A DNA stretch of 25,945 nucleotides from a virus. The translations under genes were made by a program, and so were the position numbers. The notes beneath the pieces are model-generated. The model was not told the DNA's origin, did not search any database, and was given only the letters and a program-made list of their open reading frames with translations. The stretch spans positions 1 through 25,945 of the IMG/VR virus record IMGVR_UViG_3300010883_000384; one strand, 5' to 3'. Each line of letters begins with the position of its first letter. The stretch's first letter is position 1. Shown piece after piece: positions 4,037 to 25,945 of the stretch.

Positions 4037-4042
4037 GTGGCC

Positions 4043-5707: not shown

Positions 5708-5708
5708 G

Positions 5709-6026: not shown

Positions 6027-6081
6027 GAGACCCTCGGGTTGGAGGGGGGCAGGGAGCAGATCACTACCCCCCTCCGTAAAC

Positions 6082-6099
6082 CCGGTTCCAGAGAACCGG
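6082..6099 (-). terminator. Hairpin immediately after the major capsid gene
   Basis: A 7-bp perfect stem CCGGTTC/GAACCGG with a 4-base loop begins one base after the capsid TGA on the minus strand. It is followed by GTTTACGG rather than a strong U-run, so it is at best a weak terminator or an RNA-processing/3'-protection hairpin that lowers expression of downstream genes relative to capsid. Confidence 0.5.
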
Positions 6100-6100
6100 A

Positions 6101-7171: not shown

Positions 7172-7194
7172 ACTAAATTAGTCCATGATGTTAG

Positions 7195-8701: not shown

Positions 8702-8706
8702 CTCTA

Positions 8707-11052: not shown

Positions 11053-11055
11053 GCC

Positions 11056-11346: not shown

Positions 11347-11557
11347 TGCGCTGCACCTTCGGCTTCCGCGCCTTCTTCCGCACCGCCTTCTTGCGCTCGG
11401 GAGCCGGGGGCTGTGTCTCGCCGTCTACGGTGGCGCTCGGCGGGGTCTTGACGCTGCCCTCTTCGAGCATCTCCCGAAGGCTGATCAGCTCGTCTCGGTT
11501 ATCGGACACCGCACGCATCACCTCGGTGACGCTCTTGAACCCAGAGATCTTGTTCAT
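11339..11557 (-). CDS. Small protein with basic C-terminal tail
   Basis: 72 residues from ATG at 11557 (MNKISGFKSVTEVMRAV), which overlaps the stop of the 29-residue ORF as ATGA. An ATG two codons earlier (11563) is the alternative. A helical N-terminal half (VTEVMRAVSDNRDELISLREMLEEG) leads to a Pro-rich linker and a Lys/Arg-rich tail (ERKKAVRKKARKPKVQR). That tail could bind DNA or RNA. It lies between terminase and portal. No family recognised. Confidence 0.6.
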   Translation of the reverse strand: MNKISGFKSVTEVMRAVSDNRDELISLREMLEEGSVKTPPSATVDGETQPPAPERKKAVRKKARKPKVQRSA

Positions 11558-11643
11558 CGGCATCGGCGTGACTCCGGGTTCCCAACACCCTGCGGTGATG
11601 GGGGGTGGTAGTGGAATTTATCTTTGAGGTCTTCGGTAGACAT
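11554..11643 (-). CDS. 29-residue ORF with Acb2/Tad1-like N-terminal motif
   Basis: ATG at 11643 is preceded by an ideal AGGAG (spacing 6) that overlaps the terminase stop. TGA at 11556-11554 overlaps the next gene as ATGA. The product begins MSTEDLKDKFHYHPPSPQG and ends at ESRRCR. The D-L-x-x-[RK]-F-x-Y-H-P-P element resembles the start of small phage proteins of the Acb2/Tad1 'hairpin' group, as I recall it. Those are about 70-95 residues long, so this would be only the N-terminal part. It may be a decayed gene, a true mini-protein, or a translational leader for 11339-11557. The strong ribosome site supports real translation. Confidence 0.5.
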   Translation of the reverse strand: MSTEDLKDKFHYHPPSPQGVGNPESRRCR

Positions 11644-11651
11644 GTCTGCTC

Positions 11652-12980: not shown

Positions 12981-13147
12981 CGCACGTTGTCGGCGAACAC
13001 CACGCGCAGGCCAGGCACCGGGACAATGTCAGCCCCGAGCGGGTAGGTCGGCACCGGCAGTAGCCGGCACCGGCCCATCGTGATGGTGCTCGTCTTGGGG
13101 TCCATCGTGATCGGTCTCATGAAGTATCGGCAAGCCCCGCAGGTCAG
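12968..13147 (-). CDS. Cys-rich mini-protein with possible CTG start
   Basis: The frame contains C-x2-C (TCGACRYF), then GRCRLLP and a final CLV (Cys at about 3, 6, 27 and 57 of 59 residues), like the Cys4 protein at 11056-11346. No ATG, GTG or TTG precedes the first CxxC outside the body of the gene two upstream. The only candidate at the junction is CTG at 13147-13145, which overlaps the preceding TGA as CTGA, in line with the ATGA/GTGA/TTGA joints seen elsewhere. Alternatives are a -1 frameshift fusion with the basic peptide before it, a far ATG at 13369, or an internal ATG at 13120 that would lose the CxxC. Confidence 0.5.
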   Translation of the reverse strand: MTCGACRYFMRPITMDPKTSTITMGRCRLLPVPTYPLGADIVPVPGLRVVFADNVRCLV

Positions 13148-13236
13148 CGCTTGCGCCCTGCCCTGGACTTGGCCTTCGACTTCGCGACTGCCGCACGTTG
13201 GATCGCTGCTGAGCTGGTCTTGGGTTTCGCCGGCAT
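13144..13236 (-). CDS. 30-residue basic peptide
   Basis: ATG at 13236 shares a base with the previous stop (TGATG). The product starts MPAKPKTSSAAIQRAAVAKS and ends SRAGRKR, followed by TGA. One third of the residues are Lys or Arg, which would suit nucleic-acid binding. It fills the space between two other small frames with no gap and joins the Cys-rich frame downstream as CTGA. Too short for family assignment; it might instead be the N-terminal extension of the Cys-rich protein through a -1 shift. Confidence 0.45.
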   Translation of the reverse strand: MPAKPKTSSAAIQRAAVAKSKAKSRAGRKR

Positions 13237-13451
13237 CAGGTGCCACCACCGGACATGCGCTTGGGCATGCGCCCGGGCGAGTTCGGCCCGCTCTCCTGCC
13301 CCTCAAGCAGCGGAGCCTCCCCTGCGTCTGGCAGCGACGGGTAGCTGATCTCCTTCCCCTTGCGGACATTGTTCTTGGCGGCTGAGTTCATCGGTCGCCC
13401 CTCTTGGTTCCCGTTTGCGGGGATACCGCTCGTTGACTTCAAGTTACTCAA
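13236..13451 (-). CDS. Small hypothetical protein, TTG start
   Basis: 71 residues from TTG at 13451, which overlaps the preceding stop as TTGA and has a perfect AAAGGAGG 9 bases before it. A second possible start is ATG at 13391 (MNSAAKNNVRKGKE), with GAGGGG 7 bases before, giving 51 residues. Composition is Gly/Pro/Lys-rich, with ISYPSLPDAGEAPLL in the middle and a basic, Met/Gly-rich end (GRMPKRMSGGG). No Cys, likely flexible. Function unknown. The two good ribosome sites may give two forms. Confidence 0.65.
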   Translation of the reverse strand: MSNLKSTSGIPANGNQEGRPMNSAAKNNVRKGKEISYPSLPDAGEAPLLEGQESGPNSPGRMPKRMSGGGT

Positions 13452-14989
13452 TACTTGAGTCCTCCTTTGACTATGTTGGATAGTGGGCCCGGCTCCATGT
13501 CACCAATGAGGTGCTCAGAACCCGGGAACATCAAGACATTGTAGGTGGAGTCGTCCACACCGAAGGTGATGCTGCGGGACTCTAGCTCCGCAAGGTCCGC
13601 TAGCTCAGCTTCCAACCCGTCAGCGACCTCATCCCCAATAACCGACCGGCCCCGCTCTAGTCCGCGAGTGAGCTGCCCCCGTTTGGCAGCGATGGCTGCC
13701 GCGGGCTCCATGCCGCGCTCCATGTACGCACTCAAGTCGTCCGCGATCCGCTTCTGGTTGGCGTTCAGGGCTTCGCTGTTGAGATTCTTGCCGCCTAGCA
13801 GAATGGTCGGGGGCCTCTCTGCCCGCCTCTTCGCCGGGCCATCCGGGAATCGCTGCCCATGTACACCAGCCTCTGATAGGTTGCGCTCACCCACCCGTCT
13901 TCGGATATCCGCTCCACCCCAAGCACCGTCAGGCTCTATGGCGTACTTCTCGCGCAGCGGGGTCAGTTTCTCCCGGACGAAGCCCGACTGCTCGGGCCAG
14001 TCCACGTCCTCGCGCAGTAGCTCGTGCTCGTCCACGTCCACGGTGGTCTGGTAGCTGTGTGCCGCGTCCACGTCACCGCGGAACATGAGGTGGCCGTTCT
14101 CAACGGCGTCGAGGCGTTCGAGGTCAGCCTCGACTCGCTGCAACCGCCGGATCGTAGTCTCCTTGGCCCTGATGAGGGCTTCCACTTCAACGCGGGAACT
14201 CTGCTCGGTCATTTGCTCGGTCAATTCGCGGATGCGGAGGTCATACGTGCCTTGCGCCTCTCGCAGCGTGTCGAGGTCCGCAGTGAACTCATCACGAAGA
14301 CCCCCGCGCCACTTGGGCGTAGACCGCACCCACTCACCAATCTCCTCAACGAGGTGCTCGGGGTAGTTCTCGCCGGTCTCAGTGTTGATGACACCGAGGC
14401 GGCCATCCCCGCCGAACTGGTTGTGGTAGTAGGTATGAACCTCCGGGCTATCTGGGTGACTGAGGTGTCCCCCCCACCCGTGGCTCTTTTCGAGGTTCGT
14501 ACCCTCGCCCGTCATGTAGGTGTCCTCGTCAATCTTCATGCGCTTGAACTTGTGCGGGCTCGCATGGAAGAGCTTCATCGCCGCCAGCTCGCCGGGGCCT
14601 GGTGTGTAGACGTCCATACCTGCGAGTGTGTAGGGGCTGACACCGCGGCGTGACAATGCGCCCGTGCTCTGCCCCAGGTGCTCTGCCGCCATCTCGTTCC
14701 CGGGGACCTGGTTGTACCCCGTCTGGAATCCAGAGAGCGCACCCTGAAGACCACCGAGCCGGCTGCCGCGAGCTGCGCCGGCCAGCCCGGTCGCGATGCC
14801 TGCGGCACCACCTGGAGCGGAAGCCAGGAGGTCTCGACCATGACGAGCCAGGCCCCCCATCGTCTCGGCGGCACCCTGGATATGCGCGAGCCGGTACGCA
14901 GCCTGGTCCTCTCCGGTCCACTCAAGAAGAGGGTCCGGTTCGCTGGGCGTCAGGTGCCGCGGGGGTGTGAAACCGTCGAAGAGCGGCAT
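13448..14989 (-). CDS. Polyvalent-type protein: shared N-terminal module plus ADP-ribosyltransferase-like region
   Basis: 513 residues, ATG at 14989 with AGGG 8 bases upstream. Residues 23-137 form a Gly/Ala-rich module (GRDLLASAPGGAAGIATGL ... TPGPGELAA) that also occurs in the 823-residue protein at 15230-17701. Directly after it comes KLFHASPHKFKRMKID (139-154), then TGEG (160-163), GWGG and DSPEVHTYY. That layout, FHxSP-hxF ... TGEG ... GWG ... Y, resembles the ART domains of phage polyvalent proteins. A central coiled coil (about 250-300) and a C-terminal segment that recalls polyvalent-protein linkers follow. Probably packaged or injected and acting in the host; ART activity is inference from motif order. 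Confidence 0.6.
   Translation of the reverse strand: MPLFDGFTPPRHLTPSEPDPLLEWTGEDQAAYRLAHIQGAAETMGGLARHGRDLLASAPGGAAGIATGLAGAARGSRLGGLQGALSGFQTGYNQVPGNEMAAEHLGQSTGALSRRGVSPYTLAGMDVYTPGPGELAAMKLFHASPHKFKRMKIDEDTYMTGEGTNLEKSHGWGGHLSHPDSPEVHTYYHNQFGGDGRLGVINTETGENYPEHLVEEIGEWVRSTPKWRGGLRDEFTADLDTLREAQGTYDLRIRELTEQMTEQSSRVEVEALIRAKETTIRRLQRVEADLERLDAVENGHLMFRGDVDAAHSYQTTVDVDEHELLREDVDWPEQSGFVREKLTPLREKYAIEPDGAWGGADIRRRVGERNLSEAGVHGQRFPDGPAKRRAERPPTILLGGKNLNSEALNANQKRIADDLSAYMERGMEPAAAIAAKRGQLTRGLERGRSVIGDEVADGLEAELADLAELESRSITFGVDDSTYNVLMFPGSEHLIGDMEPGPLSNIVKGGLKY
14579..14923. repeat. Duplicated module, copy 1 (N-terminal domain of the 513-residue protein)
   Basis: Encodes residues 23-137 on the minus strand. 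It aligns end to end, without gaps at the protein level, with 17189-17533. Two stretches are identical in DNA: 44 bases (14724-14767 = 17335-17378) and 39 bases (14867-14905 = 17477-17515). The repeats are direct, about 2.6 kb apart. Confidence 0.93.
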
Positions 14990-15005
14990 CCTAAGACCCT
15001 ACCGG

Positions 15006-15033
15006 TGGTGTTCCGATGGTGTTAGACTGGTGT
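15006..15033 (+). promoter_or_regulatory. Three TGGTGT direct repeats with 11-bp period
   Basis: TGGTGT occurs at 15006, 15017 and 15028, each 11 bases apart, so all three lie on one face of the helix. They sit between the divergent starts at 14989 (minus) and 15058 (plus), where a regulator would bind. No confident -35/-10 pair is visible around them, so the call is a candidate operator rather than a promoter. Confidence 0.5.
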
Positions 15034-15057
15034 ACTGAAACCAAGGAGGACATTGCG

Positions 15058-15306
15058 ATGTCACGAGCCGATGATGAGCTACGCAACGAACGAGTCCGAG
15101 CCGAGCGCGAAGCCGCGCTCGCGAGCATGAGCCCCGGCGCGCGTGCGCTCTTCGAGAAGCACAAGTTCAGCCACGAGACGACGCGGTTCAGCGTGCCAGC
15201 GGTGGACGGGGCTGTGAGTCGCGGAGCCATCACAGCGGGGGAGGCCCAGACGGTTCTGGCTGAGCTGCGGCGACAACGCCAAGCCCCACCAGCGGAAGAA
15301 CAATAG
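15058..15306 (+). CDS. Oppositely oriented small helical protein (moron-like)
   Basis: 82 residues. ATG at 15058 has AAGGAGGA at 15043-15050; an upstream ATG (15016) lacks a ribosome site. The product starts MSRADDELRNERVRAERE and is charged and helical, with a C-terminal helix (AGEAQTVLAELRRQRQ). It is the only + strand gene inside the leftward block. It stands between the two large proteins with the shared module and overlaps the 3' end of 15230-17701 by 77 bases tail to tail. Its own strong ribosome site and the TGGTGT array suggest independent expression. No family recognised. A regulator, superinfection function or antitoxin/immunity role for its neighbours are possible, none proven. Confidence 0.65.
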   Translation: MSRADDELRNERVRAEREAALASMSPGARALFEKHKFSHETTRFSVPAVDGAVSRGAITAGEAQTVLAELRRQRQAPPAEEQ

Positions 15307-17701
15307 CCGGCAGATACTCGCCATCCTGCACGGCCAGGATCAGGGTCTCGTACCAGTTCGGGTCGTTGTGGATGATCTCGCGCAGTTTCTGGAAGTCCTC
15401 GCGCACGTTGACGCCGTCCAGCTCTGCCTGGTCGGCGTCACGTCGCAGGCGCTCGCCGACCTGCTCGCGAATTTCTCGCGAAGTGGTGAGCCGCTTGCGG
15501 GTCGCCTCCGTCATGTTTGCTATGTCATCGAGCATCGCGCGGGTGGCGTTGCCTGTGCCAACCTCTTTGATCAGCTCTGTTCGGTCAACGTGCCCCCCCT
15601 GCCAGACGCCGGCCTGGACCTCGCCCGGTATCCCCGCGTCGGTGAGTGCCTTCTGGAACGCGGGCAGGTTCTTGCGAATCGTCTTCGAGCGGTGTGCTTG
15701 CTGCTGCGCGATGCGCTTGTCGCGCTTCTTCTTGCCAAGCTTCTTCGGCCACTTGTCGGGGTCCGGGCTGTTCCAGCCCTTGCTCTGGGAGTAGCCGAAG
15801 TCGCTCCATGTCTTAACACCCACACCCGAGCGCGTACCCCATGGCGCGGTGAAGCCAGCGTCACCACCGAAACCATGCGCTTCAGTGACGCTCGCCAGTG
15901 CGCCGGTCTGCTGCTGAGAGAGCGGTCCCGTGCCCGTGATGTGTGCCGCATTGACGTCACCGAGCTTCACGCCAGGAGCACCGGCAGGGAAGACGCTTCC
16001 GTACCCACTGATAGCCTGCACATCGACCAGGCCTCGGACTGACTCGCCTCCTCGGATCGCGCTCAGATCCTCGGGCGAAATGTGCCGCCCGCCCTTGTTG
16101 CGGATGTCCACCAGAGGGGAGGGGGACACCGAAGGGTTTAGCTCGACCGCCTTCGTATCGGGGTCAACCCACACGCCCGTCGTCGCCTGGTCGGGAGTAG
16201 CGCCAAACCCGATCTCCTCGTGGATGATGTCTTTGCCCGTGTCGGGGTTCGTCCAGTTGAGGTCGCCCGGATCGGCTTCATGCCCGATGCCACTAAGCGG
16301 CGCTCCCTCGTAGGGGGTGTGCATCGACTGCTTCTCGAAGTAGTCCCCGACAGTCTTCGCTGCGTTCTCCTTCGACGCCGCCAAGGTCGGAAACAGGCCG
16401 CGTGCAAAGTCGGTCTTGCCTTTCTGCGCTACCCAGGCCGCGGCCTGCACTGAGGTCGGGGTCCAATCGGTGCGACCACCGAGGGCTTGGGCGTTCGCAC
16501 GCTCTGCAGCGAGCACGCCCTCGTAGTCTAGGAATCTGTGTTGTGCAGCGGTGAACGCGCCCTCGGCCTTCTTGTAGCCGAAGGCCCTACCCTGATGGAT
16601 GTCGTTCACACCCACCGAGGGCAGAGGACGCGACGGGTCGCCGGCTTGTCCGTAGATGCCGGTTTTCGGGGTATCAAGCGAGAGCCCACCCTCGCGCACC
16701 AACCAGGACTTTTTCGCTTGAGCCTCAGTCTTACCCCGAACCTCGCCCGACATGCCGTGCATGTATGCGTTGCGGTCGCGGATATGAAAGGTGGTCTGGT
16801 TCTGCGGCGAGGCCTGCGCCGAGAAGATGCTGCTTACGTCAACCTCGGTCGTCGGGTCTTCGCCACCTATGGCTCTGAAGGCCGCGCGCTGTCTCGTGTA
16901 CCAGTCCGCGCCGAGAATGGCTCCATCCTCGATCAGAGAGTCGTAGTGGCGGCGCATTTCGAGAAGCTGATCAGCCGTGGCTACACCTTCCGGCCCACCG
17001 ATGAACCCCTCATCGCCGAGCTTGAGGTGTCGTCCCGTGCGTGCCACGGTGAGTGCTTCCGCATTGTCGAGGTTGCGAAGGTTGGGGGCCTGGGTGACTG
17101 CGTTGGCCTGGCCTGCGGTGGGTTGTTGATTGTAGATCGCGTGGGGCATAGCAACCCTGCGTCCACCTCGGGCCGCCGCGCCCGATACCGCGGCTAGCTC
17201 ACCTGGGCCTGGGGTGAAGACCTCCATGCCGGCTACTGCGTAGGGGTTGACACCTCGTGCCCTCAAATCGGCACCTGCACCCTCCAAGTGCTCCATGGCG
17301 AGCTGATTTCCGGGGATAGCGTTGAAGCCCTCTTGGAATCCAGAGAGCGCACCCTGAAGACCACCGAGCCGGCTGCCCCGAGCTGTGCCGGCCAGCCCGG
17401 TGGCAAGGCCAAGCGCTCCTCCGGGGACGGAGGCCAGGAGGTCGCGCCCAAAACGACCCACGCCGCCCATCGTCTTGGCGGCACCCTGGATATGCGCGAG
17501 CCGGTACGCAGCCTGATCCTCTTCGGTCCACTCGGAAGACGACGGTTTGCCGGGCAACCGGTAGTTGGACTGCACCCCGTCGAAGATCGACATCTTACGG
17601 GCACTCTGGAGCGCAGCCTCCTCTTGGTGTAGGCCACCGCTGTAGGCTCCTGTTTTCGGGGAGCCACCGCCAAGCAGACCCTTGAGCGTGAGGCCCGCCA
17701 T
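15230..17701 (-). CDS. Large multidomain polyvalent-type protein sharing the N-terminal module
   Basis: 823 residues from ATG at 17701, sharing one base with the upstream stop (TGATG). Residues 57-171 are the module also found in the 513-residue protein. After the same GELAA end, the sequence diverges completely. A region near 255-310 (ADWYTRQRAAFRAIGGED ... FSAQASPQNQTTFHIRDRN) recalls conserved segments of polyvalent proteins with W-Y and S-x-x-SP motifs. A very basic stretch lies near 655-690 (KKLGKKKRDKRIAQQQAHR). The last 43 residues carry a hydrophobic segment (YLPAIVLPLVGLGVVAAA), possibly membrane-inserting. Such proteins are typically packaged and ejected with the DNA. Enzymatic activity cannot be assigned. 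Confidence 0.65.
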   Translation of the reverse strand: MAGLTLKGLLGGGSPKTGAYSGGLHQEEAALQSARKMSIFDGVQSNYRLPGKPSSSEWTEEDQAAYRLAHIQGAAKTMGGVGRFGRDLLASVPGGALGLATGLAGTARGSRLGGLQGALSGFQEGFNAIPGNQLAMEHLEGAGADLRARGVNPYAVAGMEVFTPGPGELAAVSGAAARGGRRVAMPHAIYNQQPTAGQANAVTQAPNLRNLDNAEALTVARTGRHLKLGDEGFIGGPEGVATADQLLEMRRHYDSLIEDGAILGADWYTRQRAAFRAIGGEDPTTEVDVSSIFSAQASPQNQTTFHIRDRNAYMHGMSGEVRGKTEAQAKKSWLVREGGLSLDTPKTGIYGQAGDPSRPLPSVGVNDIHQGRAFGYKKAEGAFTAAQHRFLDYEGVLAAERANAQALGGRTDWTPTSVQAAAWVAQKGKTDFARGLFPTLAASKENAAKTVGDYFEKQSMHTPYEGAPLSGIGHEADPGDLNWTNPDTGKDIIHEEIGFGATPDQATTGVWVDPDTKAVELNPSVSPSPLVDIRNKGGRHISPEDLSAIRGGESVRGLVDVQAISGYGSVFPAGAPGVKLGDVNAAHITGTGPLSQQQTGALASVTEAHGFGGDAGFTAPWGTRSGVGVKTWSDFGYSQSKGWNSPDPDKWPKKLGKKKRDKRIAQQQAHRSKTIRKNLPAFQKALTDAGIPGEVQAGVWQGGHVDRTELIKEVGTGNATRAMLDDIANMTEATRKRLTTSREIREQVGERLRRDADQAELDGVNVREDFQKLREIIHNDPNWYETLILAVQDGEYLPAIVLPLVGLGVVAAAQPEPSGPPPL
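17189..17533. repeat. Duplicated module, copy 2 (N-terminal domain of the 823-residue protein)
   Basis: Encodes residues 57-171 on the minus strand. It is the partner of 14579-14923, in direct orientation. The protein-level boundaries are sharp: similarity begins at EWT-EDQAAYRLAH and ends at TPGPGELAA, after which the two proteins share nothing obvious. Confidence 0.93.
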
Positions 17702-18087
17702 CAGTGGAGCCTCGCGTCACCATTCGTTGCCGGCTTCTTCTTGGGTGACACTTTCCTGCCCTTCGGTTTCGGCTTGGGTGGGGCATCGCCCCAACTGAAG
17801 GACATCGGGCCGGTCAGGTTGAGGGTCTGCTCCTGGGTCGGAGCCTGGGGCAACACCGAAGCGAGTAGCGCCTTAGCGGCAACGATGTCCCCGCTCTCCG
17901 CGCACTCGATCATCGAGTCGATGATCTCATCCGCCCGGTCAGCGATAGCCTCGGCGATCCTGTGCTTGGCCTGTTGAAGTTTGTTCGACCCTGTCGGGTT
18001 CTTGCCGGGCTCGCCGGCCCTCTGCTGGTGCGGACGCAGGTTTGCGAGTTGCTGCTTCGTCGCGGGGCGCTTCTTCTTCGCCGGCAT
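17701..18087 (-). CDS. DUF5681-like small protein, possible terminase-small-subunit-type role
   Basis: 128 residues, ATG at 18087 after a strong GGGGGGAGGA. The N-terminus is basic (MPAKKKRPATKQQ) with GEPGKNPTGSNKLQQAK, close to the G-x-S-GNP-x-GRPKG signature of DUF5681. A helical core follows (RIAEAIADRADEIIDSMIECAESGDIVAAKALLASVLP), in which E-x-GD-x-x-AAK-x-LL is also typical of that family. The C-terminus is Lys/Pro-rich. DUF5681 proteins are often found in packaging modules. No separate small terminase is seen in the window, so this gene is a candidate, but that is inference. Confidence 0.55.
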   Translation of the reverse strand: MPAKKKRPATKQQLANLRPHQQRAGEPGKNPTGSNKLQQAKHRIAEAIADRADEIIDSMIECAESGDIVAAKALLASVLPQAPTQEQTLNLTGPMSFSWGDAPPKPKPKGRKVSPKKKPATNGDARLH

Positions 18088-18117
18088 GATCTCTGTCCTC
18101 CCCCCGAGGTGTCGTGA

Positions 18118-18372
18118 CTACCGACGTGTCTGTCCGGTCGGCTGCCTAGAGGGCGCGCTCTGGCTGCGGTTTCCACCACCAGGCCAGTTCTCCTCGACGA
18201 CCTTCGTGGCACCCCCATGATCCGGGTCCACGCCCAAGGGCGCGCTGTTGTCGCCATTGTTGGCCTGACCCGAGAGCCCACCCAGCGTGGGGTCCTGCGT
18301 TCGGCTGACGTTCTTGACCCCAGACCGTATCCCGGCACGCTTGAAGGGTTTTGACTTCTTGAAAGGGACCAT
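18118..18372 (-). CDS. Small basic Gly/Asn-rich protein, first gene of the leftward operon
   Basis: 84 residues. ATG at 18372 is preceded by AGGAGG with 5 bases spacing, the best ribosome site in the leftward block. The product begins MVPFKKSKPFKRAGIRSG, basic and likely disordered, then Gly/Asn/Pro-rich sequence (LGGLSGQANNGDNSAPLG) and an Arg-rich end. No Cys, no membrane segment. As the promoter-proximal gene it may be highly expressed. Family not recognised. Confidence 0.65.
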   Translation of the reverse strand: MVPFKKSKPFKRAGIRSGVKNVSRTQDPTLGGLSGQANNGDNSAPLGVDPDHGGATKVVEENWPGGGNRSQSAPSRQPTGQTRR

Positions 18373-18397
18373 TCAATCCTCCTGGGGTGCCTCCGCC

Positions 18398-18439
18398 GAG
18401 CCCCGAGCCGCGACAAGGAAATAACGCGACCCGGGGCTC
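18398..18439 (-). promoter_or_regulatory. Stable leader hairpin upstream of the first leftward gene
   Basis: GAGCCCCG (18398-18405) pairs with CGGGGCTC (18432-18439), 8 bp. Inside, CGCG (18409-18412) can pair with CGCG (18425-18428). The hairpin ends about 15 bases before the AGGAGG of the 18118-18372 gene, so it would lie in its 5' untranslated RNA and could affect message stability or translation. Confidence 0.5.
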
Positions 18440-18503
18440 TCTTGCAGAGACCACTATGTGGCCTGCAGGATGCCACGAAACGCGAGGGGCACGCAAGTGA
18501 GAG

Positions 18504-18541
18504 GCCCTGGGGGCTCCTGAGAGCGCCCCAGGGCGTCTTTT
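18504..18541 (+). terminator. Rho-independent terminator, + orientation
   Basis: GCCCTGGGG (18504-18512) pairs with CCCCAGGGC (18526-18534). The inner GCTC/GAGC adds 4 bp with a CTGA loop and one bulge. GTCTTTT follows at 18535-18541. The U-run is on the + strand only. No + gene lies directly upstream, so it ends antisense read-through, a short RNA or an attenuated leader. Confidence 0.75.
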
Positions 18542-18708
18542 GCAACCGGACCCTACCACGAACCCAGGATGCGGCCCGAATGTAACCCACCGGCCCCAAG
18601 AGGGACCCCCGGGGTCGCGCGCGCGTGTCTCTTATTAATAGACTTCCTTTTTCTCTCTCTCTCTCTAAAGGTAGAAGGGTTAGCCGAGGGGGGAGGGGGG
18701 TCGCCCCG

Positions 18709-18737
18709 TTGACCGGCCCATCGCCCGCTGTAATCAT
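18709..18737 (+). promoter_or_regulatory. Putative sigma70 promoter for the replication operon
   Basis: TTGACC (18709-18714, 5 of 6 matches to the -35 box), a 17-base spacer ending in TGT (extended -10), then AATCAT (18732-18737, 4 of 6). Initiation near 18744 would leave a short leader with GAGGAGG before the GTG at 18767. Plausible host-polymerase early promoter; not proven. Confidence 0.5.
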
Positions 18738-18766
18738 GGGCCTCCACCACGAACCGAGGAGGCCCT

Positions 18767-20701
18767 GTGCCCACCCCGATCTCGACCGACCCCGCAGTAC
18801 TCGCAGCCTGGCAGCTCTCAGGCCTAACCTCTTCAGACGCCAAGAAGATGAAGGTCGGACTCCTCACCGCGAACGAGAGAGACAAGTTCGACATCTACTC
18901 GAAGCCCGCAATGCTCCTGCCTTACTTCGACCGGCACGGTGCTGTGCTCCCGGGTTTCGCCCGTGTTCGTATCTGGTCCGATGACGAGGAGGCTCCGAAA
19001 TATATCCAGGTCGGGGGTGGCACAGAGGCCTACCTCCCACCCCTCATCAACTGGGACAAGACCCTGTCCGATACCAGTCGGCCTATCTTCATCACGGAGG
19101 GCGAGAAGAAGGCTGCCTGCGCCACGAAGAATGGCTACCCCTGCATAGGACTCGGCGGGGTCGATAGCTACCGAAGCAAGACGAGCCTCAACACCGGCAT
19201 CCTGCCAATCTTCGACGAGTTCGAGTGGGTGGGCCGGAAGGTCTACATCGTCTTCGATTCCGACATCCACGAGAACGCGGGTGTGGCGACCGCAGCCTTC
19301 AAGCTCTCGCGTGAGATGCTGAAGCGTGGCGCGAAGGTCTACATCGTGCTGCTCCCCCCCTCCCAGGCCAAGGTCGGGCTCGACGACTACATCGTCGAGC
19401 ATGGGACCGAGGCATTCGACCGGGTCCTCGACCGCTCCGAGCAGGAGGTCACACTCAGCTCGATGCTCGAAGACCTCAAGCAGAGGATCGTCGTGCTCCG
19501 AAGGGGGAGCGTCTACGACACACGCGACGAGCAGATCTACAGTCGTGACCACTTCGTCCGCACCGCATTCGCGCACTGGAACGTCGAGGGTCCGCCAGGC
19601 CCGAGGGGCGGGAAGCCAGAGAAGTACTACGTCGCGGAGGAGTACCTCGATTGGAAGCACCGCATCGATGTGACACACGTTGACACGAGACCCGACATCC
19701 CAACAGGTGTCTTCGTGGACAAGGACGGGCGGAACGTGCTCAACTGGTTCAGGGGCTGGGCCTGCGAGCCTGTGAAGGGCAGCGTGAAGCCATTCCTCAC
19801 CCTGATCAAACGCCTAACAAAGGGCGACAAGGCTGCTGCAGACTACCTGATCGGATGGCTCGCCCACCCCCTCCAGAACCCAGGGGTGCGAAACGATGTC
19901 TGTGTGGTCCTGGTCTCACGGACCAACGGGACCGGGAAGTCCACACTCGGCAAGACGATGCTCTCGATCTACGGAGACAACGGCCAGCACGGTCAGTACC
20001 TCCGACCGGGCATGCTCTTCGCTGACTTCAACGGGTGGGCGAAGGCCTGCCTCTTCGCCTACGCCGACGAGATCCCCGACGAGGGCCGCGTCTCGCACAG
20101 GCGTGAAGCCTTCAAGGCACTGATTGACCAACCCTTCGTGAACGTGAACATCAAGAACATCCCCGAGGTCGATGCGGTCCACCGCTGCAATTACCTCTTC
20201 ACCACGAACAACCCCGGTGCGATCCCCATGGACGAGAGCGACCGACGCTTCTTCGTGTTGAACACCATCGAGGAGTACTGGGAGAACGAGGAGTCGGACT
20301 CCTACTACGACTGGCTCCATGGCGGGGGTGCCTCGGCGCTCTTCCACTACCTGCTCCGCTACAAGTCGAAGGCCTTCGTCGCGCACCGAAAGCCCCCCGA
20401 GACCGAGGCGAAGCTACGCATGATTGAATCATCGAGGCCGAAGCTCGGGACGCTCGTGCACGAGTTCCTCGCCGAGGGTCCGCCCGACCTCTTCACGGAC
20501 GAACTCGTGTGGAAGCGGATCAGCGGGAAAGTTGGTCGCACCTCCGAGTACACACGGACCACGGTCGGCTCGACCGTCGATGGTTTCAGCCAGGTATTCA
20601 CCCGCAAGATCGAGGGGCTCAGGGTCCACTCCCTCGACCGCTCGTGGAAGGCCCTCAGCCCGAAGCAGGCGAAGGATCGGTGGGATGCCAATAATAGCTG
20701 A
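18767..20701 (+). CDS. Primase-helicase: TOPRIM (DUF3854-like) plus SF3/D5-type helicase (DUF5906-like)
   Basis: 644 residues from GTG at 18767 with GAGGAGG 5 bases before. The TOPRIM part has TEGEKKA (E111) and VFDSD (D164, D166), with LGGVDSY between. The C-terminal ATPase has Walker A RTNGTGKST (K391), Walker B FAYADE (D434/E435), sensor-1 TTNNPGAIPMDESD and the arginine finger DRRFF (R493). A winged-helix-like tail follows. This is the usual domain order of phage replicative primase-helicases, which unwind the fork and support primer synthesis. The window shows no separate primase, so this protein or the host supplies priming. First gene of the rightward operon. Confidence 0.9.
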   Translation: MPTPISTDPAVLAAWQLSGLTSSDAKKMKVGLLTANERDKFDIYSKPAMLLPYFDRHGAVLPGFARVRIWSDDEEAPKYIQVGGGTEAYLPPLINWDKTLSDTSRPIFITEGEKKAACATKNGYPCIGLGGVDSYRSKTSLNTGILPIFDEFEWVGRKVYIVFDSDIHENAGVATAAFKLSREMLKRGAKVYIVLLPPSQAKVGLDDYIVEHGTEAFDRVLDRSEQEVTLSSMLEDLKQRIVVLRRGSVYDTRDEQIYSRDHFVRTAFAHWNVEGPPGPRGGKPEKYYVAEEYLDWKHRIDVTHVDTRPDIPTGVFVDKDGRNVLNWFRGWACEPVKGSVKPFLTLIKRLTKGDKAAADYLIGWLAHPLQNPGVRNDVCVVLVSRTNGTGKSTLGKTMLSIYGDNGQHGQYLRPGMLFADFNGWAKACLFAYADEIPDEGRVSHRREAFKALIDQPFVNVNIKNIPEVDAVHRCNYLFTTNNPGAIPMDESDRRFFVLNTIEEYWENEESDSYYDWLHGGGASALFHYLLRYKSKAFVAHRKPPETEAKLRMIESSRPKLGTLVHEFLAEGPPDLFTDELVWKRISGKVGRTSEYTRTTVGSTVDGFSQVFTRKIEGLRVHSLDRSWKALSPKQAKDRWDANNS

Positions 20702-20714
20702 GCAATAGCTGAGC
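20693..20714. repeat. 11-bp tandem duplication across the primase-helicase stop
   Basis: AATAGCTGAGC occurs at 20693-20703 and again, directly adjacent, at 20704-20714. The first copy contains the stop codon TGA (20699-20701). Confidence 0.93.
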
Positions 20715-20767
20715 ACCCACGGGGCTTTGCAGCACCTGCCAGAGTGGGTTGCTCGCCCCGTCCGCGA

Positions 20768-20794
20768 TGGGGTACCCTAGTTTGCTGTACCCCA
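20768..20794 (+). promoter_or_regulatory. Inverted repeat in the leader of the 20841 gene
   Basis: TGGGGTAC (20768-20775) pairs with GTACCCCA (20787-20794), an 8-bp stem with 11-base loop, followed nearby by a third GTGGTAC half-site at 20796. A wider pair, ACGGGGC (20719-20725) with GCCCCGT (20755-20761), lies upstream. No U-run follows, so an operator or structured leader is more likely than a terminator. The 139-bp gap 20702-20840 holds no gene. Confidence 0.45.
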
Positions 20795-20840
20795 GTGGTA
20801 CATACTCCAAGACTCCAGATTCTCAACAAGGAACGAATAG

Positions 20841-21218
20841 ATGGCATATCCGAAGACTCTCGGCGCGTCCGCCGACAAACTCTACCGAGCCCGCGAGGCC
20901 CGCCTCGCACTCGACCGACAGGTCAAGAAGCTGAAGGCCGAGGAGGTGAGCCTCACCGACCACATCGGTGCTCTGCTCTCGAACCAGAGGCTCGACAAAG
21001 CCTCGGGCAAGATCGCCACGGTGTCGAAGACCCTGAAGCCGCTCGGGTCGATCCTCGACTGGCCCGCGCTCCTGAAGTACGCGGCTGATAATGAGGCGAG
21101 TGACCTCATCGAGCGGAGGGTCTCGGGCAAGGTGCTCGCCGACCGCGTCTCCCAGAAGGAGAAGGTACCGGGCGTGAAGCTCGAATACCTCGCCAAGATC
21201 TCACTCACCAAACGATAG
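20841..21218 (+). CDS. Conserved small phage replication-module protein
   Basis: 125 residues, ATG at 20841 preceded by AAGGAA. The N-terminal half is a long charged helix (DKLYRAREARLALDRQVKKL, KAEEVSL). The C-terminal half has ILDWPALLKYAADNEASDL, then RRVSGKVLADR and a strand VPGVKLEYLAKISLTKR. This two-part pattern, DKLYxxRxxRL at the start and PGVxxxxxxxISLTK at the end, is one I recall from small proteins near ssDNA-binding and polymerase genes in many podoviruses. Biochemical role is unknown to me. The position between primase-helicase and polymerase supports a role in replication. Confidence 0.75.
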   Translation: MAYPKTLGASADKLYRAREARLALDRQVKKLKAEEVSLTDHIGALLSNQRLDKASGKIATVSKTLKPLGSILDWPALLKYAADNEASDLIERRVSGKVLADRVSQKEKVPGVKLEYLAKISLTKR

Positions 21219-21230
21219 GATTCACCTAAC

Positions 21231-22067
21231 ATGAGCAACCAAGAAAACGCGCTAGCTACCCTGGAGGAGATGGGCCTCTTCGCCAAGGGCGGCACCTTCA
21301 ACAAGGGGATGTCCCTCACTGCAACAGCCCGCGGCGGGGATGTCCGACACGTCTCGATCAGGGGCGCGGTCTTCAACTTCTCCGAGACCGACACCCCCAC
21401 CGAGGAGCGGGTGCTGATCATCGATGCGGTGAGGTCGAACAACTGGTACTCCTCGGAGTACGAGTCGTCCAACACCTCGGCACCTGACTGCTTCTCCCTG
21501 CAGGACATCCGGGCGGGTGTCAAAGAGGCGGACATGGTCCCGCATGCGGAGTCAGCCGACAAGCAGCGCCCGGCCTGCCTCGACTGCCCTCAGAACGCAT
21601 GGGGCTCGGGGAAGGGGAACAGCAAGGCCTGCAAGAACTACGTCCGTGTGGCGTTCCTCAGAGGACCCGTCGAGACGCCCGCAGACGCGAAGAAGCAGGT
21701 CTTCGTGGTGCAGCTCCCGCCGACCGCTCTGAAGGCCTGGACCTCGCTCTGTGACGACTTCGAGGCGCACGAGGCCCCAGCGTTCTTCACATGCCACGCT
21801 GACCTCTCCATCGCGTCTCTGCCCTCGGGTGGCTACACGGTCGAGGTCGCCCGTGTCGTGGCCGAGGACGAGGGTCCGGTCACGGACCCCGAGGTCCTCG
21901 TCGCGGTGGCGCAGCGTCACGAGAAGACGGTCAACGCGATGCTGCTCCCACCGCCCCAGCGGGAGAAGGACCAGCCGAAGCTCGCGAAGCGTGGCACCCC
22001 TACCAAGAAGAAGAAGGTCTCGAAGAAGGCCGGCGCGAAGAAGAAGGTCACACGCCGCAAGGTGTAG
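21231..22067 (+). CDS. Putative ssDNA-binding-type protein with Cys cluster and Lys-rich tail
   Basis: 278 residues, ATG at 21231; the ribosome site is weak (AGGA 12 bases upstream). The N-terminal domain is beta-rich (GMSLTATARGGDVRHVSIRG, FNF). A Cys cluster follows at about 116-135 (CLDCPQNAWGSGKGNSKACKNY), a probable zinc site. Then an OB/beta-like region (FVVQLPPTALKAW) and a C-terminal tail with 15 or more Lys/Arg (KKKKVSKKAGAKKKVTRRK). Proteins with CxxCP-x-N-x-xGS...C next to PolA-type polymerases are often annotated as ssDNA-binding. A strongly basic rather than acidic tail is unusual for that role, so general nucleic-acid binding is the safer call. Confidence 0.65.
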   Translation: MSNQENALATLEEMGLFAKGGTFNKGMSLTATARGGDVRHVSIRGAVFNFSETDTPTEERVLIIDAVRSNNWYSSEYESSNTSAPDCFSLQDIRAGVKEADMVPHAESADKQRPACLDCPQNAWGSGKGNSKACKNYVRVAFLRGPVETPADAKKQVFVVQLPPTALKAWTSLCDDFEAHEAPAFFTCHADLSIASLPSGGYTVEVARVVAEDEGPVTDPEVLVAVAQRHEKTVNAMLLPPPQREKDQPKLAKRGTPTKKKKVSKKAGAKKKVTRRKV

Positions 22068-22092
22068 GCCCCCAAGTCGGGAGCCGACAAAC

Positions 22093-22133
22093 TGAGGGGG
22101 CGGGTCAGGCGAGGCGTCGAGCCCGCCCCCTCA
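22093..22133 (+). terminator. Strong 12-bp hairpin after the Lys-tail gene
   Basis: TGAGGGGGCGGG (22093-22104) and CCCGCCCCCTCA (22122-22133) form a perfect 12-bp GC-rich stem with a 17-base loop. No U-run follows; the next bases carry the ribosome site of 22148. It may be a weak or factor-dependent terminator, an RNA-stability element, or an attenuator that separates the first replication genes from polymerase. Confidence 0.55.
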
Positions 22134-22147
22134 CAAGGGAGAGACAC

Positions 22148-22342
22148 ATGGGATACAACGATTATATTGAGACCGACCCGAGGACCTGCGTTGGCTGTGA
22201 GAAGGTGACCGATGACGGTCTCGGATGTGGCCGCTGCGGCTTCAACTTCTGCGAGGATTGCCGGGCCAGTAGATGGCTGGATGTTTTCGGCGACCCGATG
22301 TGCTTCTGCATCGGCTGCGAGGACTGGATGGCTCATCAGTGA
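22148..22342 (+). CDS. 64-residue cross-brace-type zinc mini-protein
   Basis: ATG at 22148 with AAGGGAG about 6 bases before. Nine cysteines are placed as C14-x2-C17, C27-x2-C30, C35-x2-C38 and C52-x-C54-x2-C57 in a 64-residue chain. This spacing recalls RING/PHD/FYVE-type double zinc sites. Examples are TCVGCEKV, CGRCGFNFCEDC and CFCIGC. The stop overlaps the polymerase start as GTGA, so the two are translated together. Could be a polymerase accessory, a host-interaction protein or a stand-alone zinc finger. Family not recognised. Confidence 0.75.
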   Translation: MGYNDYIETDPRTCVGCEKVTDDGLGCGRCGFNFCEDCRASRWLDVFGDPMCFCIGCEDWMAHQ

Positions 22343-24126
22343 GCGTCTACGTCCTCGACATCGAGTCCGAGGGGATCAACTTCGATAGGCCCCACCTCCA
22401 ACCATTCCCGGTGGGGCTCGGGGTGCGCTACCCCGATGGCGAACGAGCCTACCTACCTTGGGGCCACACCCGGGGAGGGAACGAGACCGGAGCCTGGGAG
22501 AAGGCCTGCAAGGTCCTCCAGCGGATCACCCGCAATGGTGACACCATCGTGGGGCACAACATCACGGGGTTCGACATCCCGGTCATGGTCGAGCACATGG
22601 GCTTCGAGTGGCCGACACCCGACAGGATCATCGACACGAAGATCCTGGCTTTCCTCGCGATGCCAGACGCCCAGAAGAACGAGCTGAGCCTGAAGCCGCT
22701 CGGCGAGAAGATCCTCGGGCGGCCACCGACCCAGCAGGCGATCCTCCGGGACCACATCCTCACATGCGTCCCAGAGGCCACGAAGAAGAACTGGGGCGGC
22801 TACATCTTCCGGGGCCACGCCGACATCGTCGGGGCGTACTGCATCGAGGATATCGACCTCCCCTGGATGCTCTACCACAACCACTTCGCGCTCCTTGACC
22901 TCGACCAGGCCGCCATCGAGCGGGAGAACGAGGCCGTCCGTGTCGCGCACGCGATGACGGTGGCCGGCTACCGGACCAAGACCCTCAAGGGCGCGCTCGA
23001 CCTGACCCGCTCGACCCGCCTGAAGCTCAACAGGAGAATCCACCGCAAGCTCGGTGACGTGGGCCTCGACAGCCCGAAACAGCTCGGGCCGGTCCTCATG
23101 CGGTACTTCGGTGCCAAGGAGGACGAGTGGCCCAGGACCGCGAAGGGCGCACTCAGCACGAGCTGGAAGACCATCGGGCAGCTCTACGAGGACCCGATCC
23201 TCGAAGACCTCCACGCCTACAAGCAGGCGAAGACGATCCATGACAACCTCGTCGCCTGGACGGAGAGGGGGGCCCTGGCGACCGACAAGAGGGTCCACGT
23301 CCAATGGAACACCACAGCAGGCTCGGACGGTCAGGGTCGGACCTTCGGTGCCCGTACAGGGCGATTGAGCGCGTCTCACACCCAGAACGTGGCGAAGGAG
23401 CCCGAGCCCCTGATCGGGCTCCCGCTCCCGAACCTCCGGGAGCACGTCTGCGCCGCCCCCCACCACAAGCTGATCGTCGCCGACTACGCGGCCCAGGAGC
23501 CCCGGCTGACGGCGCACTTCGCGGGGGGTGCCCTCGCACAGGCTTACCGTGACAACCCCCAGCTTGACCCCCACACCCATGTCGCGAAGCTGATGGGGGT
23601 CAGCAGACCCCAAGGCAAGGCACTCAACCTGGGGCTCACCTACGGGCAGGGGATCGCGCTCCTCGCCCTGAAGCTCGGGGTCGAGTACGACCGTGCCCGT
23701 GAGCTGAAGGATGCGTTCCTCGACTCGCTCCCCGAGGTCAGGACCCTCGACGCGAATCTCAGGAAGCTCTGGATACGCCGAAAGCCGATCACCACATGGG
23801 GAGGGCGCGACTACCACTGCGAGACCGCGGCCCTCGACGACGACGGGGAGGTCATACGCAGCTTCGAGTACAAGGCTGTGAACACCTTGATCCAGGGGAG
23901 CGCGGCTGACCAACTCAAGCAGGCGATGATCGACTACCACAACCACCCCGACCGGAGGGGCTGGCTGATCATGACGGTGCATGACGAGATGGTCGTCGAG
24001 GTCCCGAAAGAGTTTGCGAAGGCCGAGGCCCTCGTCGTTAAGGAGGCGATGGAGGGCGTCGGACCGTTCGATGTGCCGTTCCTGGCAGAGGTCGGGATCG
24101 GCACCACATGGAGCGCAGCGAAATGA
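22339..24126 (+). CDS. Family A DNA polymerase with 3'-5' exonuclease
   Basis: 595 residues from GTG at 22339, overlapping the upstream stop as GTGA; the longer frame to 22273 runs inside the zinc gene. Exonuclease: Exo I LDIE (D7, E9), Exo II GHNITGFD, Exo III near GAYCIEDID. Polymerase: motif A VADYAAQEPR (D382), motif B R423-PQG-K427-x7-Y435-G, motif C VHDE (H548-D549-E550). It is the replicative polymerase, T7 gp5-like in domain content and somewhat shorter. Motif A has AAQE where SQIE is frequent. Y435 in motif B, where E. coli Pol I has Phe, suggests tolerance to dideoxynucleotides. It is followed directly by an ATGA-coupled gene. Confidence 0.97.
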   Translation: MSVYVLDIESEGINFDRPHLQPFPVGLGVRYPDGERAYLPWGHTRGGNETGAWEKACKVLQRITRNGDTIVGHNITGFDIPVMVEHMGFEWPTPDRIIDTKILAFLAMPDAQKNELSLKPLGEKILGRPPTQQAILRDHILTCVPEATKKNWGGYIFRGHADIVGAYCIEDIDLPWMLYHNHFALLDLDQAAIERENEAVRVAHAMTVAGYRTKTLKGALDLTRSTRLKLNRRIHRKLGDVGLDSPKQLGPVLMRYFGAKEDEWPRTAKGALSTSWKTIGQLYEDPILEDLHAYKQAKTIHDNLVAWTERGALATDKRVHVQWNTTAGSDGQGRTFGARTGRLSASHTQNVAKEPEPLIGLPLPNLREHVCAAPHHKLIVADYAAQEPRLTAHFAGGALAQAYRDNPQLDPHTHVAKLMGVSRPQGKALNLGLTYGQGIALLALKLGVEYDRARELKDAFLDSLPEVRTLDANLRKLWIRRKPITTWGGRDYHCETAALDDDGEVIRSFEYKAVNTLIQGSAADQLKQAMIDYHNHPDRRGWLIMTVHDEMVVEVPKEFAKAEALVVKEAMEGVGPFDVPFLAEVGIGTTWSAAK

Positions 24127-24434
24127 TAGACACAACAGACGATGGCGGGGCGGGTAAGCGTGAGGGGATGGGCCGGGGGCTCCGGCACGCCAACCCTGAT
24201 TTCGTGGCAGAGGCCCACTTCCTGCTCGACAGAATGCAGGTCGGCAACACCTTTACGGTGTGTAAGCTACGCGACATGATGTCTGAGGGCACCCACGATG
24301 ACCGCGCCCTCGGTGGCATCATCCGTGGAGCCTCGCAGAAGGGCACGAGGTTCGTGAAGATGGGGTACGAGACCAGCGGGAAGGCGCGCAACCACCACCG
24401 GCCTGTTATGCGGTGGCGAAAGGTGACACGATGA
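24123..24434 (+). CDS. Small basic, winged-helix-like protein behind the polymerase
   Basis: 103 residues from ATG at 24123, overlapping the polymerase stop as ATGA; the upstream ATG at 24108 lies inside that gene. Sequence features are FVAEAHFLLDRMQVGNTFTV (helix then strand), CKLRDMMSEG (recognition-helix-like), DDRALGGIIRGASQKG and a C-terminal HHRPVMRWRKV. The pattern of helix, short helix, D-x-RALGxxI...A-x-x-G and a basic RPVxxW end is typical of a wing-type DNA-binding fold seen in small genes after phage polymerases. Probable nucleic-acid-binding accessory; not proven. Ends ATGA-coupled to the nuclease gene. Confidence 0.65.
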   Translation: MIDTTDDGGAGKREGMGRGLRHANPDFVAEAHFLLDRMQVGNTFTVCKLRDMMSEGTHDDRALGGIIRGASQKGTRFVKMGYETSGKARNHHRPVMRWRKVTR

Positions 24435-25120
24435 AGAAACGCGCCGCGAAGCGAGCACGCCCGAAGAGCATCAAGGCCTGGAGCTACAGCACCTGGAGCA
24501 ACTGGGACAACTGTCCCAGAAAAGTGTACTTCGAGAAGATCGAGGGCCTGAAGTCGTCGGGCTCCCCGGCGATGGAGCGGGGCTCCCGGATCCACAGCCA
24601 GGTCGAGAACTACCTCCTCGGGAAGGGCGACCTCCCCGAGGAGTGCGAGGCACTCACCGAGGAGTTCGAGGAGTTGCGCGGTCTCGGTGTCGATGCCGAG
24701 GCGAAGATCTGCATGACCGAGCAGTGGGCGCTCGTGTCGTGGTTCGACCCGGCGGCCTGGGTCCGTGGCGCGCTCGACTGGTGCCACTGGATCTCGCCGA
24801 CCCACTTCAAGCTCGGGGACCTGAAGACCGGGAAGATCCGGTCAAAGCAGCACAAGACCCAGATGGGGCTCTACGCGCTCCTGGCCTTCAAGGCCTACCC
24901 GAAGGCGAGGAAGGTCACGGTCGAGCTGTTCTACTGCGACCAGGACGAGATACACGAGAGTGAGTACACCCGGAAGGCTGACTTCAAGAAACTCGAAGCG
25001 GAGTGGAAGCCACGGTGGGAGGGCCTGCTCGGGGACACGGAGTTCCCGGCGACACCGAACCCCCTCTGCGGGTGGTGTGACTACAGCGCGAAGAAGGGAG
25101 GCCCCTGCGCCCATGGGTGA
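24431..25120 (+). CDS. PD-(D/E)XK nuclease, Cas4/RecB-like with Fe-S Cys pattern
   Basis: 229 residues from ATG at 24431, ATGA overlap. Nuclease residues are H55 (RGSRIHSQVE), D116 (RGALDW), D130-x-K132 (LGDLKTGK), and Q144-x3-Y148 (KTQMGLYALL), the order of RecB/Cas4 nucleases. Cysteines C28 (NCPRK), C213, C216 (LCGWCDY) and C226 match the four ligands of the 4Fe-4S cluster in Cas4 and AddB-type proteins. It is likely a DNA exonuclease acting in host DNA degradation, recombination or end processing. The neighbouring polymerase supports a role in DNA metabolism. No cas1/cas2 is nearby, so this is a phage-type nuclease rather than a CRISPR adaptation gene. Confidence 0.88.
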   Translation: MKKRAAKRARPKSIKAWSYSTWSNWDNCPRKVYFEKIEGLKSSGSPAMERGSRIHSQVENYLLGKGDLPEECEALTEEFEELRGLGVDAEAKICMTEQWALVSWFDPAAWVRGALDWCHWISPTHFKLGDLKTGKIRSKQHKTQMGLYALLAFKAYPKARKVTVELFYCDQDEIHESEYTRKADFKKLEAEWKPRWEGLLGDTEFPATPNPLCGWCDYSAKKGGPCAHG

Positions 25121-25415
25121 CCCGAAGCCCGTCGATGGAGAAGAGGAGTTCGATTTCGATGAAGAATATATGTACGCCGACCTAGATGGTCGTGCGTCTC
25201 TACTTGCAGAGCACGACGCCGCCATCCGCGCCGAGCGAGACGCCTACTGGAAGGGGAGGGTGCGGGAGACGCTTAGCGGTACATGGGCCAACGGCTGGAC
25301 GTACCGAAACGCGCATCCGACAGTAGAGTGGACTGGCAACCCAACCCTCTCCCGTGCGCGGGCAGACTGGGTAAACACCATCATGGCCGAGGTGCTGGGG
25401 AATGACGATGAGTGA
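25113..25415 (+). CDS. Tagged small protein 1 of an array (KPVD tag)
   Basis: 100 residues from ATG at 25113, overlapping the nuclease stop by 8 bases (ATGGGTGA). It begins MGDPKPVDGEEEF, then an acidic stretch (DFDEEYMYADLDG), a helix AEHDAAIRAERDAYWKGRV, and NTIMAEVLGNDDE at the end. The central DAAIRAE and the end AEV-x-G-DE recur in the gene at 25538-25915, so the two are diverged paralogues. No Cys or known catalytic motif. GGGAGG lies about 13 bases upstream. Function unknown. Confidence 0.7.
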   Translation: MGDPKPVDGEEEFDFDEEYMYADLDGRASLLAEHDAAIRAERDAYWKGRVRETLSGTWANGWTYRNAHPTVEWTGNPTLSRARADWVNTIMAEVLGNDDE

Positions 25416-25545
25416 GACGAAGCCCGTCGAGAGCGCGGAGGCGTTAAAACGCTGTATGCCTTGTGTGGTAGGGCATCACGAAGCCTGCAACATCCGAGAC
25501 TTTCGCAGCCAATGCTGCTGCCAGAGAGGTGCCTCACATGACTGA
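25408..25545 (+). CDS. Tagged Cys-rich mini-protein 2 of the array
   Basis: 45 residues from ATG at 25408, overlapping the previous stop by 8 bases (ATGAGTGA). It begins MSETKPVESAEAL and then has no similarity to the other members: CMPCVVGHHEAC ... QCCCQRGASHD. The spacing C16-x2-C19-x3-HH-x2-C27 and the CCC cluster with a terminal HD suggest one zinc site, as in small Cys/His phage peptides. Its start is part of a 29-base repeat shared with the next gene. It ends by overlapping the next start by 8 bases. Confidence 0.6.
   Translation: MSETKPVESAEALKRCMPCVVGHHEACNIRDFRSQCCCQRGASHD
25417..25445 (+). repeat. 29-bp direct repeat, copy 1 (N-terminal tag)
   Basis: Identical to 25547-25575, 130 bp apart. 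It encodes T-KPVESAEA and the start of the next codon. Right after copy 1 the sequence continues AAAACGC, so GCGTT-AA-AACGC is a small palindrome at the end of the tag. Confidence 0.95.
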
Positions 25546-25915
25546 CACGAAGCCCGTCGAGAGCGCGGAGGCGTTCGTCGAGCGCATCGAAGATTACGAA
25601 AAGCCGCATGTGATCGAGTGCGTAAAGCAACGAGATAGCGAGCGAGACGCCGCCATCCGTGCCGAGGGGGAGGCTAAGGTGGAAGGCTACCGGATGCTGG
25701 TATGCCGAACTTCCTGCAAGATGCACTACCCAGCACCAGACGGCGAGTCGGACCCGTGGGAGATCATCCGTGCCGAGGAGCGGGCGAAGGCGCGGGAGCT
25801 GGCGAAAGCGGCGCTCACGAAGGGTATGTCAGTGCATCGTGGTCCGCCGATAAACGCACATTGGGAGGGTGACACCATCGACGCCCTCGTGGCTGAGGTG
25901 TACGGGGATGAGTAA
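25538..25915 (+). CDS. Tagged small protein 3 of the array (KPVES tag)
   Basis: 125 residues from ATG at 25538 with GAGAGG 8 bases before; it overlaps the previous stop by 8 bases (ATGACTGA). It begins MTDTKPVESAEAFVERIEDY. Helical region SERDAAIRAEGEAKVEGYR is followed by CRTSCKMHYPAPDG (CxxxC and H, possible partial metal site), a second helix with IRAEERAKARELAKAAL, and DALVAEVYGDE at the end. It resembles protein 1 in the DAAIRAE helix and the AEV-x-GDE end. Function unknown. Confidence 0.7.
   Translation: MTDTKPVESAEAFVERIEDYEKPHVIECVKQRDSERDAAIRAEGEAKVEGYRMLVCRTSCKMHYPAPDGESDPWEIIRAEERAKARELAKAALTKGMSVHRGPPINAHWEGDTIDALVAEVYGDE
25547..25575 (+). repeat. 29-bp direct repeat, copy 2 (N-terminal tag)
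   Basis: Perfect copy of 25417-25445. Shorter related copies start the genes at 25113 (13 bases identical, 25123-25135) and 25908 (20 bases with one mismatch, 25918-25937). Confidence 0.95.
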
Positions 25916-25945
25916 CTCGAAGCCCGTCGAGAGTGCGCCCCGCAA
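25908..25945 (+). CDS. Tagged small protein 4 of the array, 5' end only
   Basis: ATG at 25908 overlaps the previous TAA by 8 bases (ATGAGTAA). The visible part reads MSNSKPVESAPR and runs off the window. It repeats the overlap geometry and the KPVES tag of the preceding genes, which shows that the array goes on to the right. Nothing can be said about the rest of the protein. Confidence 0.6.
   Translation, partial: MSNSKPVESAPR

Follow-up and report, generated by a model that had tools for sequence, protein, structure and literature searches.

The genes of phage T4 that carry a capsid targeting sequence (CTS) have been seen as a way of bringing varied proteins into the head (PMC9026906; PMC3012670). 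The T4 internal proteins are packaged there and are cleaved by the gp21 protease. In the same phage, short homologies drive amplification and deletion (PMC9391042). A different kind of repeat at gene starts has been described in cluster K mycobacteriophages and cluster EF Microbacterium phages, in which short repeats, the start-associated sequences (SAS and ESAS), are tied to the translation starts of genes from different families (PMC3203893, PMC7302621). The SAS sits at the ribosome site ahead of the start, and the ESAS are inverted repeats, also upstream (PMC3203893).

Here we compare these systems with an array of four small open reading frames, o1 to o4, at the right end of a podovirus-like contig. 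The window, by which we mean the whole stretch of DNA analysed (25,945 bases), is an IMG/VR virus record (Table 1). Virion genes, among them those for terminase, portal, scaffold and major head protein, lie on the minus strand in its left arm, and its right arm, on the plus strand, encodes a primase/helicase-like protein, a family A DNA polymerase and a PD-(D/E)XK nuclease followed by o1–o4. Podoviruses and environmental phages, at 28–40% protein identity, are the nearest annotated relatives, and podovirus ctXG6705 (MW202481.1) is the top-listed match for both portal and capsid. Positions 36–10081 of the window are 99.9% identical to positions 1–10046 of a 10-kb contig, IMGVR_UViG_3300031625_000092 (L017); the two are the same phage in two records or samples, and L017 covers that interval only, with the array outside it. 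Elsewhere in the window, a 64-aa Cys-rich ORF has several C-x2-C pairs and a weak, sub-threshold IBR/RING match; the DNA polymerase ORF, as listed, starts within its 3′ part.

The gene directly before the array encodes the nuclease, whose relatives in phages are 24–31% identical to it. In distant relatives, the DNA 3′ of the nuclease gene soon reaches VRR-NUC-like and helicase genes (the VRR-NUC label being our own reading of the ORFs), so the small genes o1–o4 are probably an accessory insertion.

A direct repeat at four successive start codons

A sequence-only reading of this DNA had reported four consecutive ORFs with a common N-terminal tag, and we confirm all four, with a 38-nt repeat at each ATG (Table 1). 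A repeat finder given no hint returned one direct repeat, 38 nt long and present in four copies, every copy starting at an ATG. Over positions +1 to +33 the o2 and o3 copies agree at 31 of 33 nucleotides, most other pairs at 25–26 and the o1/o4 pair at 22. This identity is sharp-edged, dropping to background level upstream of the ATG and past about +38. The binomial chance of such agreement is 1.7e-14 for o2/o3 and about 1e-7 to 1e-8 per pair where the match is of the quality seen with o1 and o4.

Table 1. Positions of the array, its repeat copies and ribosome-binding sites, and of other genes of the window discussed in the text
Feature	Position	Strand	Remarks
Window	1..25945		IMG/VR record IMGVR_UViG_3300010883_000384, 25,945 bases
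513-aa protein	13448..14989	−	138-residue N-terminal module
823-aa protein	15230..17701	−	138-residue N-terminal module
64-aa Cys-rich ORF	22148..22342	+	
PD-(D/E)XK (RecB/Cas4-like) nuclease gene	24431..25120	+	PF12705 E=1.2e-16; phrog_69 E=1.1e-27
o1	25113..25415	+	MGDPKPVDGEEEF; 100 aa, acidic, pI 4.4, tagged; paralogue of o3
o2	25408..25545	+	MSETKPVESAEAL; 45 aa, 6 Cys, pI 6.8, tagged
o3	25538..25915	+	MTDTKPVESAEAF; 125 aa, acidic, pI 5.0, tagged; paralogue of o1
o4	25908..25945	+	MSNSKPVESAP..; start and tag, frame open at contig end
Tag copy 1 (o1)	25113..25150	+	76% to copy 2
Tag copy 2 (o2)	25408..25445	+	reference copy
Tag copy 3 (o3)	25538..25575	+	95% to copy 2
Tag copy 4 (o4)	25908..25945	+	68% over 38 nt; 26/33 for first 33 nt
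GGAGG Shine-Dalgarno-like site	25097..25101	+	11 nt before o1 ATG
GAGGTG Shine-Dalgarno-like site	25389..25394	+	7 nt before ATG 25402; 13 before 25408
GAGGTG Shine-Dalgarno-like site	25526..25531	+	6 nt before o3 ATG
GAGGTG Shine-Dalgarno-like site	25895..25900	+	7 nt before o4 ATG; inside conserved AEV codons of o3

All four copies use the same codons for KPV (chance 0.0045 under the codon use of the phage), and o2 and o3 do so for TKPVESAEA (chance 0.0011 on the same basis), so the tag was copied as DNA and is not a peptide reached by convergence. None of the four copies has lost the KPV(E/D) core, though o1 and o3 have otherwise strongly diverged. The contig comes to its end together with the o4 tag copy, 38 nt past the ATG, which may be an assembly break due to the repeat or to variation behind it.

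Searches of viral contigs, genome contigs and phage records, from which near relatives of the window may be absent, gave nothing related to o1, o2, o3 or the tag. When o1–o3 were compared by tblastn with 50,697 phage records there was no credible match, and none of the 80 loci recovered by a polymerase-alignment search, at 25–35% identity, carries the tag. Single-protein searches of viral contigs with nuclease, polymerase and portal returned distant polymerases and L017 only; the nuclease alignment was too divergent to serve as a search query. Degenerate tag patterns gave 13 single, chance-like matches, none with a second copy, and stricter patterns gave zero. The bare DNA core of the tag matched two copies of one unrelated site only, and the genome contigs gave no match to the tag.

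Joints between the genes and bodies behind the tag

At every joint, including that between the nuclease gene and o1, the ATG overlaps the preceding stop by 8 nt (ATGGGTGA, ATGAGTGA, ATGACTGA and ATGAGTAA), as had been claimed from the letters of the sequence. An alternative in-frame ATG of o2 at 25402 has the same 7-nt spacing from its GAGGTG as the o4 start has, so the true start of o2 may be 25402, in which case this overlap is 14 nt long. The idea that the fixed overlap is a special device did not survive comparison. Among 542 overlaps in the related loci that we fetched, the commonest lengths are 4 nt (205), 1 nt (92) and 8 nt (76), and a locus among the closest polymerase relatives (L024, 34% identity) has three 8-nt overlaps in succession, with MTD/MTN starts; a special role for the 8-nt overlap is rejected because such overlaps are this frequent. 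It is correct that the tag supplies the stop of the preceding gene, yet the arrangement is a common one, and MSE, MTE, MTD and MSN starts all yield TGA or TAA in the preceding gene's frame. In L024 the three successive small genes lie at 3019–4442 and two of them have the start MTD.YE.I.Q in common; in the first, similarity to phrog_2201 does not begin until residue 9, as though the gene had gained an extra start.

Past the tag, none of 2000 shuffles reaches the alignment score of o1 with o3, and codons are common at 24 of their 32 identical residues against 17.5 expected, which marks the two, by their sequences, as divergent acidic paralogues with patches of retained DNA identity. The body of o2 has no similarity to those of o1 and o3 at the DNA level (265 and 558 of 1000 shuffles, respectively, reach the score) and, in its own frame, no significant similarity to either protein. 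Another frame of the o2 body matches o1 weakly (11 of 1000 shuffles reach the score, with six tests made), so that o2 may, with low probability, be the remains of a paralogue. With a count of Cys residues that is improbable by chance (at least six in 1 of 5714 open shuffles) and codons that, beyond the tag, show none of the G+C position bias of the phage's genes, o2 is probably, not certainly, a gene. Its CxxCxxGxHxxC motif is reminiscent of zinc-binding small proteins, a likeness that is a lead only, as the motif had no other match among those loci that were scanned for it.

Neither o1 nor o2 has a match in Pfam or PHROGs, and o3 has sub-threshold matches only. An AlphaFold model of o3 is mostly helix at low confidence (pLDDT 54), and the protein is probably helical; this model and that of o2 (pLDDT 55) were of too low a quality for a fold search.

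Because the o2 body is unrelated to the others and the ATG-anchored repeat is common to the genes at the DNA level, the 5′ end of the gene was copied apart from the bodies. The sequence-only reading had gone further and seen in the array a modular cassette system, with genes inserted or exchanged behind a fixed start and tag. The tag on o2, the lack of kinship of the o2 body to o1 and o3, and the copying as DNA from the ATG onward support part of that idea. On the other side, the fixed overlap is an ordinary one and o1 and o3 are plain divergent paralogues; exchange of genes behind the tag is a possibility only, as no relative with the tag came out of the viral contigs, genome contigs and phage records searched and the contig stops within the fourth copy.

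Other gene starts shared within one genome

In 1.12 Mb of DNA from related loci and controls, with 15,553 ATG starts, we looked for pairs of starts that agree at 26 or more of the 33 nt counted from the ATG; six phage genomes were added later, so that nine phage records (371 kb) were covered. We set aside matches at record ends, pairs that stood alone at the threshold and paralogues within the window. Three cases stood out: o2/o3, the T4 pair ipII/ipIII, which was included as a control and is identical at 32 of 33 nt from the ATG and then at 9 of 33, and a pair in the related podovirus MW202481.1, the one convincing pair besides the other two. An ATG-anchored shared start tag is uncommon, not unique.

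The MW202481.1 pair (locus L107) consists of adjacent small genes at 9557–9739 and 9376–9552 on the minus strand which agree at 27 of 33 nt from the ATG and have the tag MQIELDYI.E; their BLASTP match covers residues 1–10 only, and the bodies are unrelated. Like o2 and o3, they join DNA identity from the ATG to unrelated bodies within a cluster of tiny genes; unlike o1–o4, there are two copies only, without overlap, with another tag and in A+T-rich DNA. The pair, which together spans 9376–9739, sits among about a dozen such genes.

The window itself contains a second case. Proteins of 823 and 513 aa have a common N-terminal module of 138 residues (67% amino acid identity; 79% over 359 nt of DNA) and nothing in common beyond it. 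An internal Met follows the module without a gap in the 513-aa protein (..GPGELAA-MKLFHASPHKF..), as if the module had been placed ahead of a complete gene. What comes after the module there (MKLFHASPHKF..TGEG..) is reminiscent of phage ADP-ribosyltransferase-type cargo domains, to which no search matched it. The two proteins resemble the tag genes in having a common 5′ module and otherwise unrelated parts and, judged at the level of sequence, the event is of the same kind as the copying of the tag. The module differs from the tag in being much longer, in having a different sequence (it has no similarity to KPVES) and in lying on the opposite genome arm, where both proteins are large orphans among the structural genes.

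Origin of the array and comparison with known systems

We favour, with a probability of roughly 60%, the reading that the array is a set of translationally coupled small accessory genes that closes a podovirus replication operon and arose by duplication of a gene's 5′ end and the joining of the copies to new bodies. A segment of about 12 codons, counted from the start codon, with the Shine-Dalgarno site just 5′ of it, would have been copied in tandem. Two of the copies, o1 and o3, would have retained related, fast-diverging bodies; in o2, the copied start would now stand before an unrelated Cys-rich body, having been joined to it when a deletion ran into a neighbouring gene or when DNA was inserted behind the tag. 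The order of these duplication and joining events is the one that we infer. A ribosome ending one gene could reinitiate at the next, overlapping start, and the repeated tags may act as short homologies at which recombination lets the array grow, shrink or swap bodies. The products may have an accessory role, in host takeover or counter-defence. Three things count against this duplication reading: the searches gave no relative with the array from which the order of events could be read, the tag core is unusually well kept relative to much of o1 and o3, which duplication alone does not predict, and o2 is short, lacks the G+C position bias and has the weak other-frame match to o1.

A rival reading is that the tag is a functional, CTS-like N-terminal peptide that takes unrelated small proteins to the virion interior, the replication complex or a host partner. 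The conserved core speaks for it, as does the anatomy of T4 ipII/ipIII, where about 10 identical N-terminal residues direct anti-defence proteins of diverse kinds to the head. We nevertheless regard this as fairly unlikely. The array genes are located in the replication arm, and the silent-site DNA identity is already accounted for by recent copying. T4 ipII, ipIII and ipI are basic, with pI values of 9.3, 9.5 and 8.9, whereas o1, o2 and o3 are acidic or neutral (4.4, 6.8 and 5.0). In the incomplete contig, the prohead protease family PF04586 (S78) gave no match with its controls working, and PF03420 (S77) gave none either, but its control was also silent. Because the array proteins lack the basic character of the T4 ones, and the contig, as far as it goes, yielded no prohead protease, we do not place the array among T4-type CTS genes. 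It is quite unlikely, too, that the tag is a portable N-terminal address on changing small early proteins, with genes swapped behind it, which would make these proteins CTS-like cargo with a destination other than, or besides, a T4-type prohead.

An improbable alternative is that the repeat works as nucleic acid, as a SAS-like translation-initiation enhancer or regulator binding site within the coding start. The fixed position at the ATG, the identical KPV codons and the GAGGTG common upstream would suit such an element, but SAS and ESAS lie upstream of the start codon and the array repeat is coding and starts at the ATG. Where the SAS is a 13-bp element immediately 5′ of the start codon, the array has only GAGGTG in common; the array joints contain no inverted repeat of the kind found in ESAS (17 bp, imperfect, upstream); and, when the four start regions were folded as RNA, they had no common fold and none was unusually stable (z −1.6 to +1.7). 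That these are ordinary tandem paralogues of a single gene family, in which o2 has been truncated or frameshifted, is very improbable: the paralogy of o1 and o3 and the weak other-frame match of o2 agree with it, but homology along the whole length is found for o1/o3 and not for the o2 body (o4 being cut off), and a Cys-rich o2 frame is improbable by chance.

A gene-front duplication of the kind that we favour would bear on more than this locus. The T4 CTS genes show that the members of a fast-changing set of counter-defence proteins can carry one common start tag. With a four-copy tag in a podovirus unrelated to T4, a second module in the same phage and the pair in MW202481.1, the copying of gene fronts may be a wider habit of phages, and ATG-anchored repeats offer a simple signature for finding unknown cargo tags and accessory-gene arrays. 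Of the systems compared, T4 ipII/ipIII is the closest match in anatomy, and the likeness is one of anatomy only. Both are sets of neighbouring small genes whose otherwise unrelated products begin with a common N-terminus of about 10 residues, the genes agreeing over about 33 nt of DNA from the ATG (32/33 in T4; 31/33 in o2/o3). The T4 genes are also alike upstream of the start (22 of 30 nt), where the array genes have only the Shine-Dalgarno site in common, and the array genes, unlike ipII and ipIII, overlap by 8 nt.
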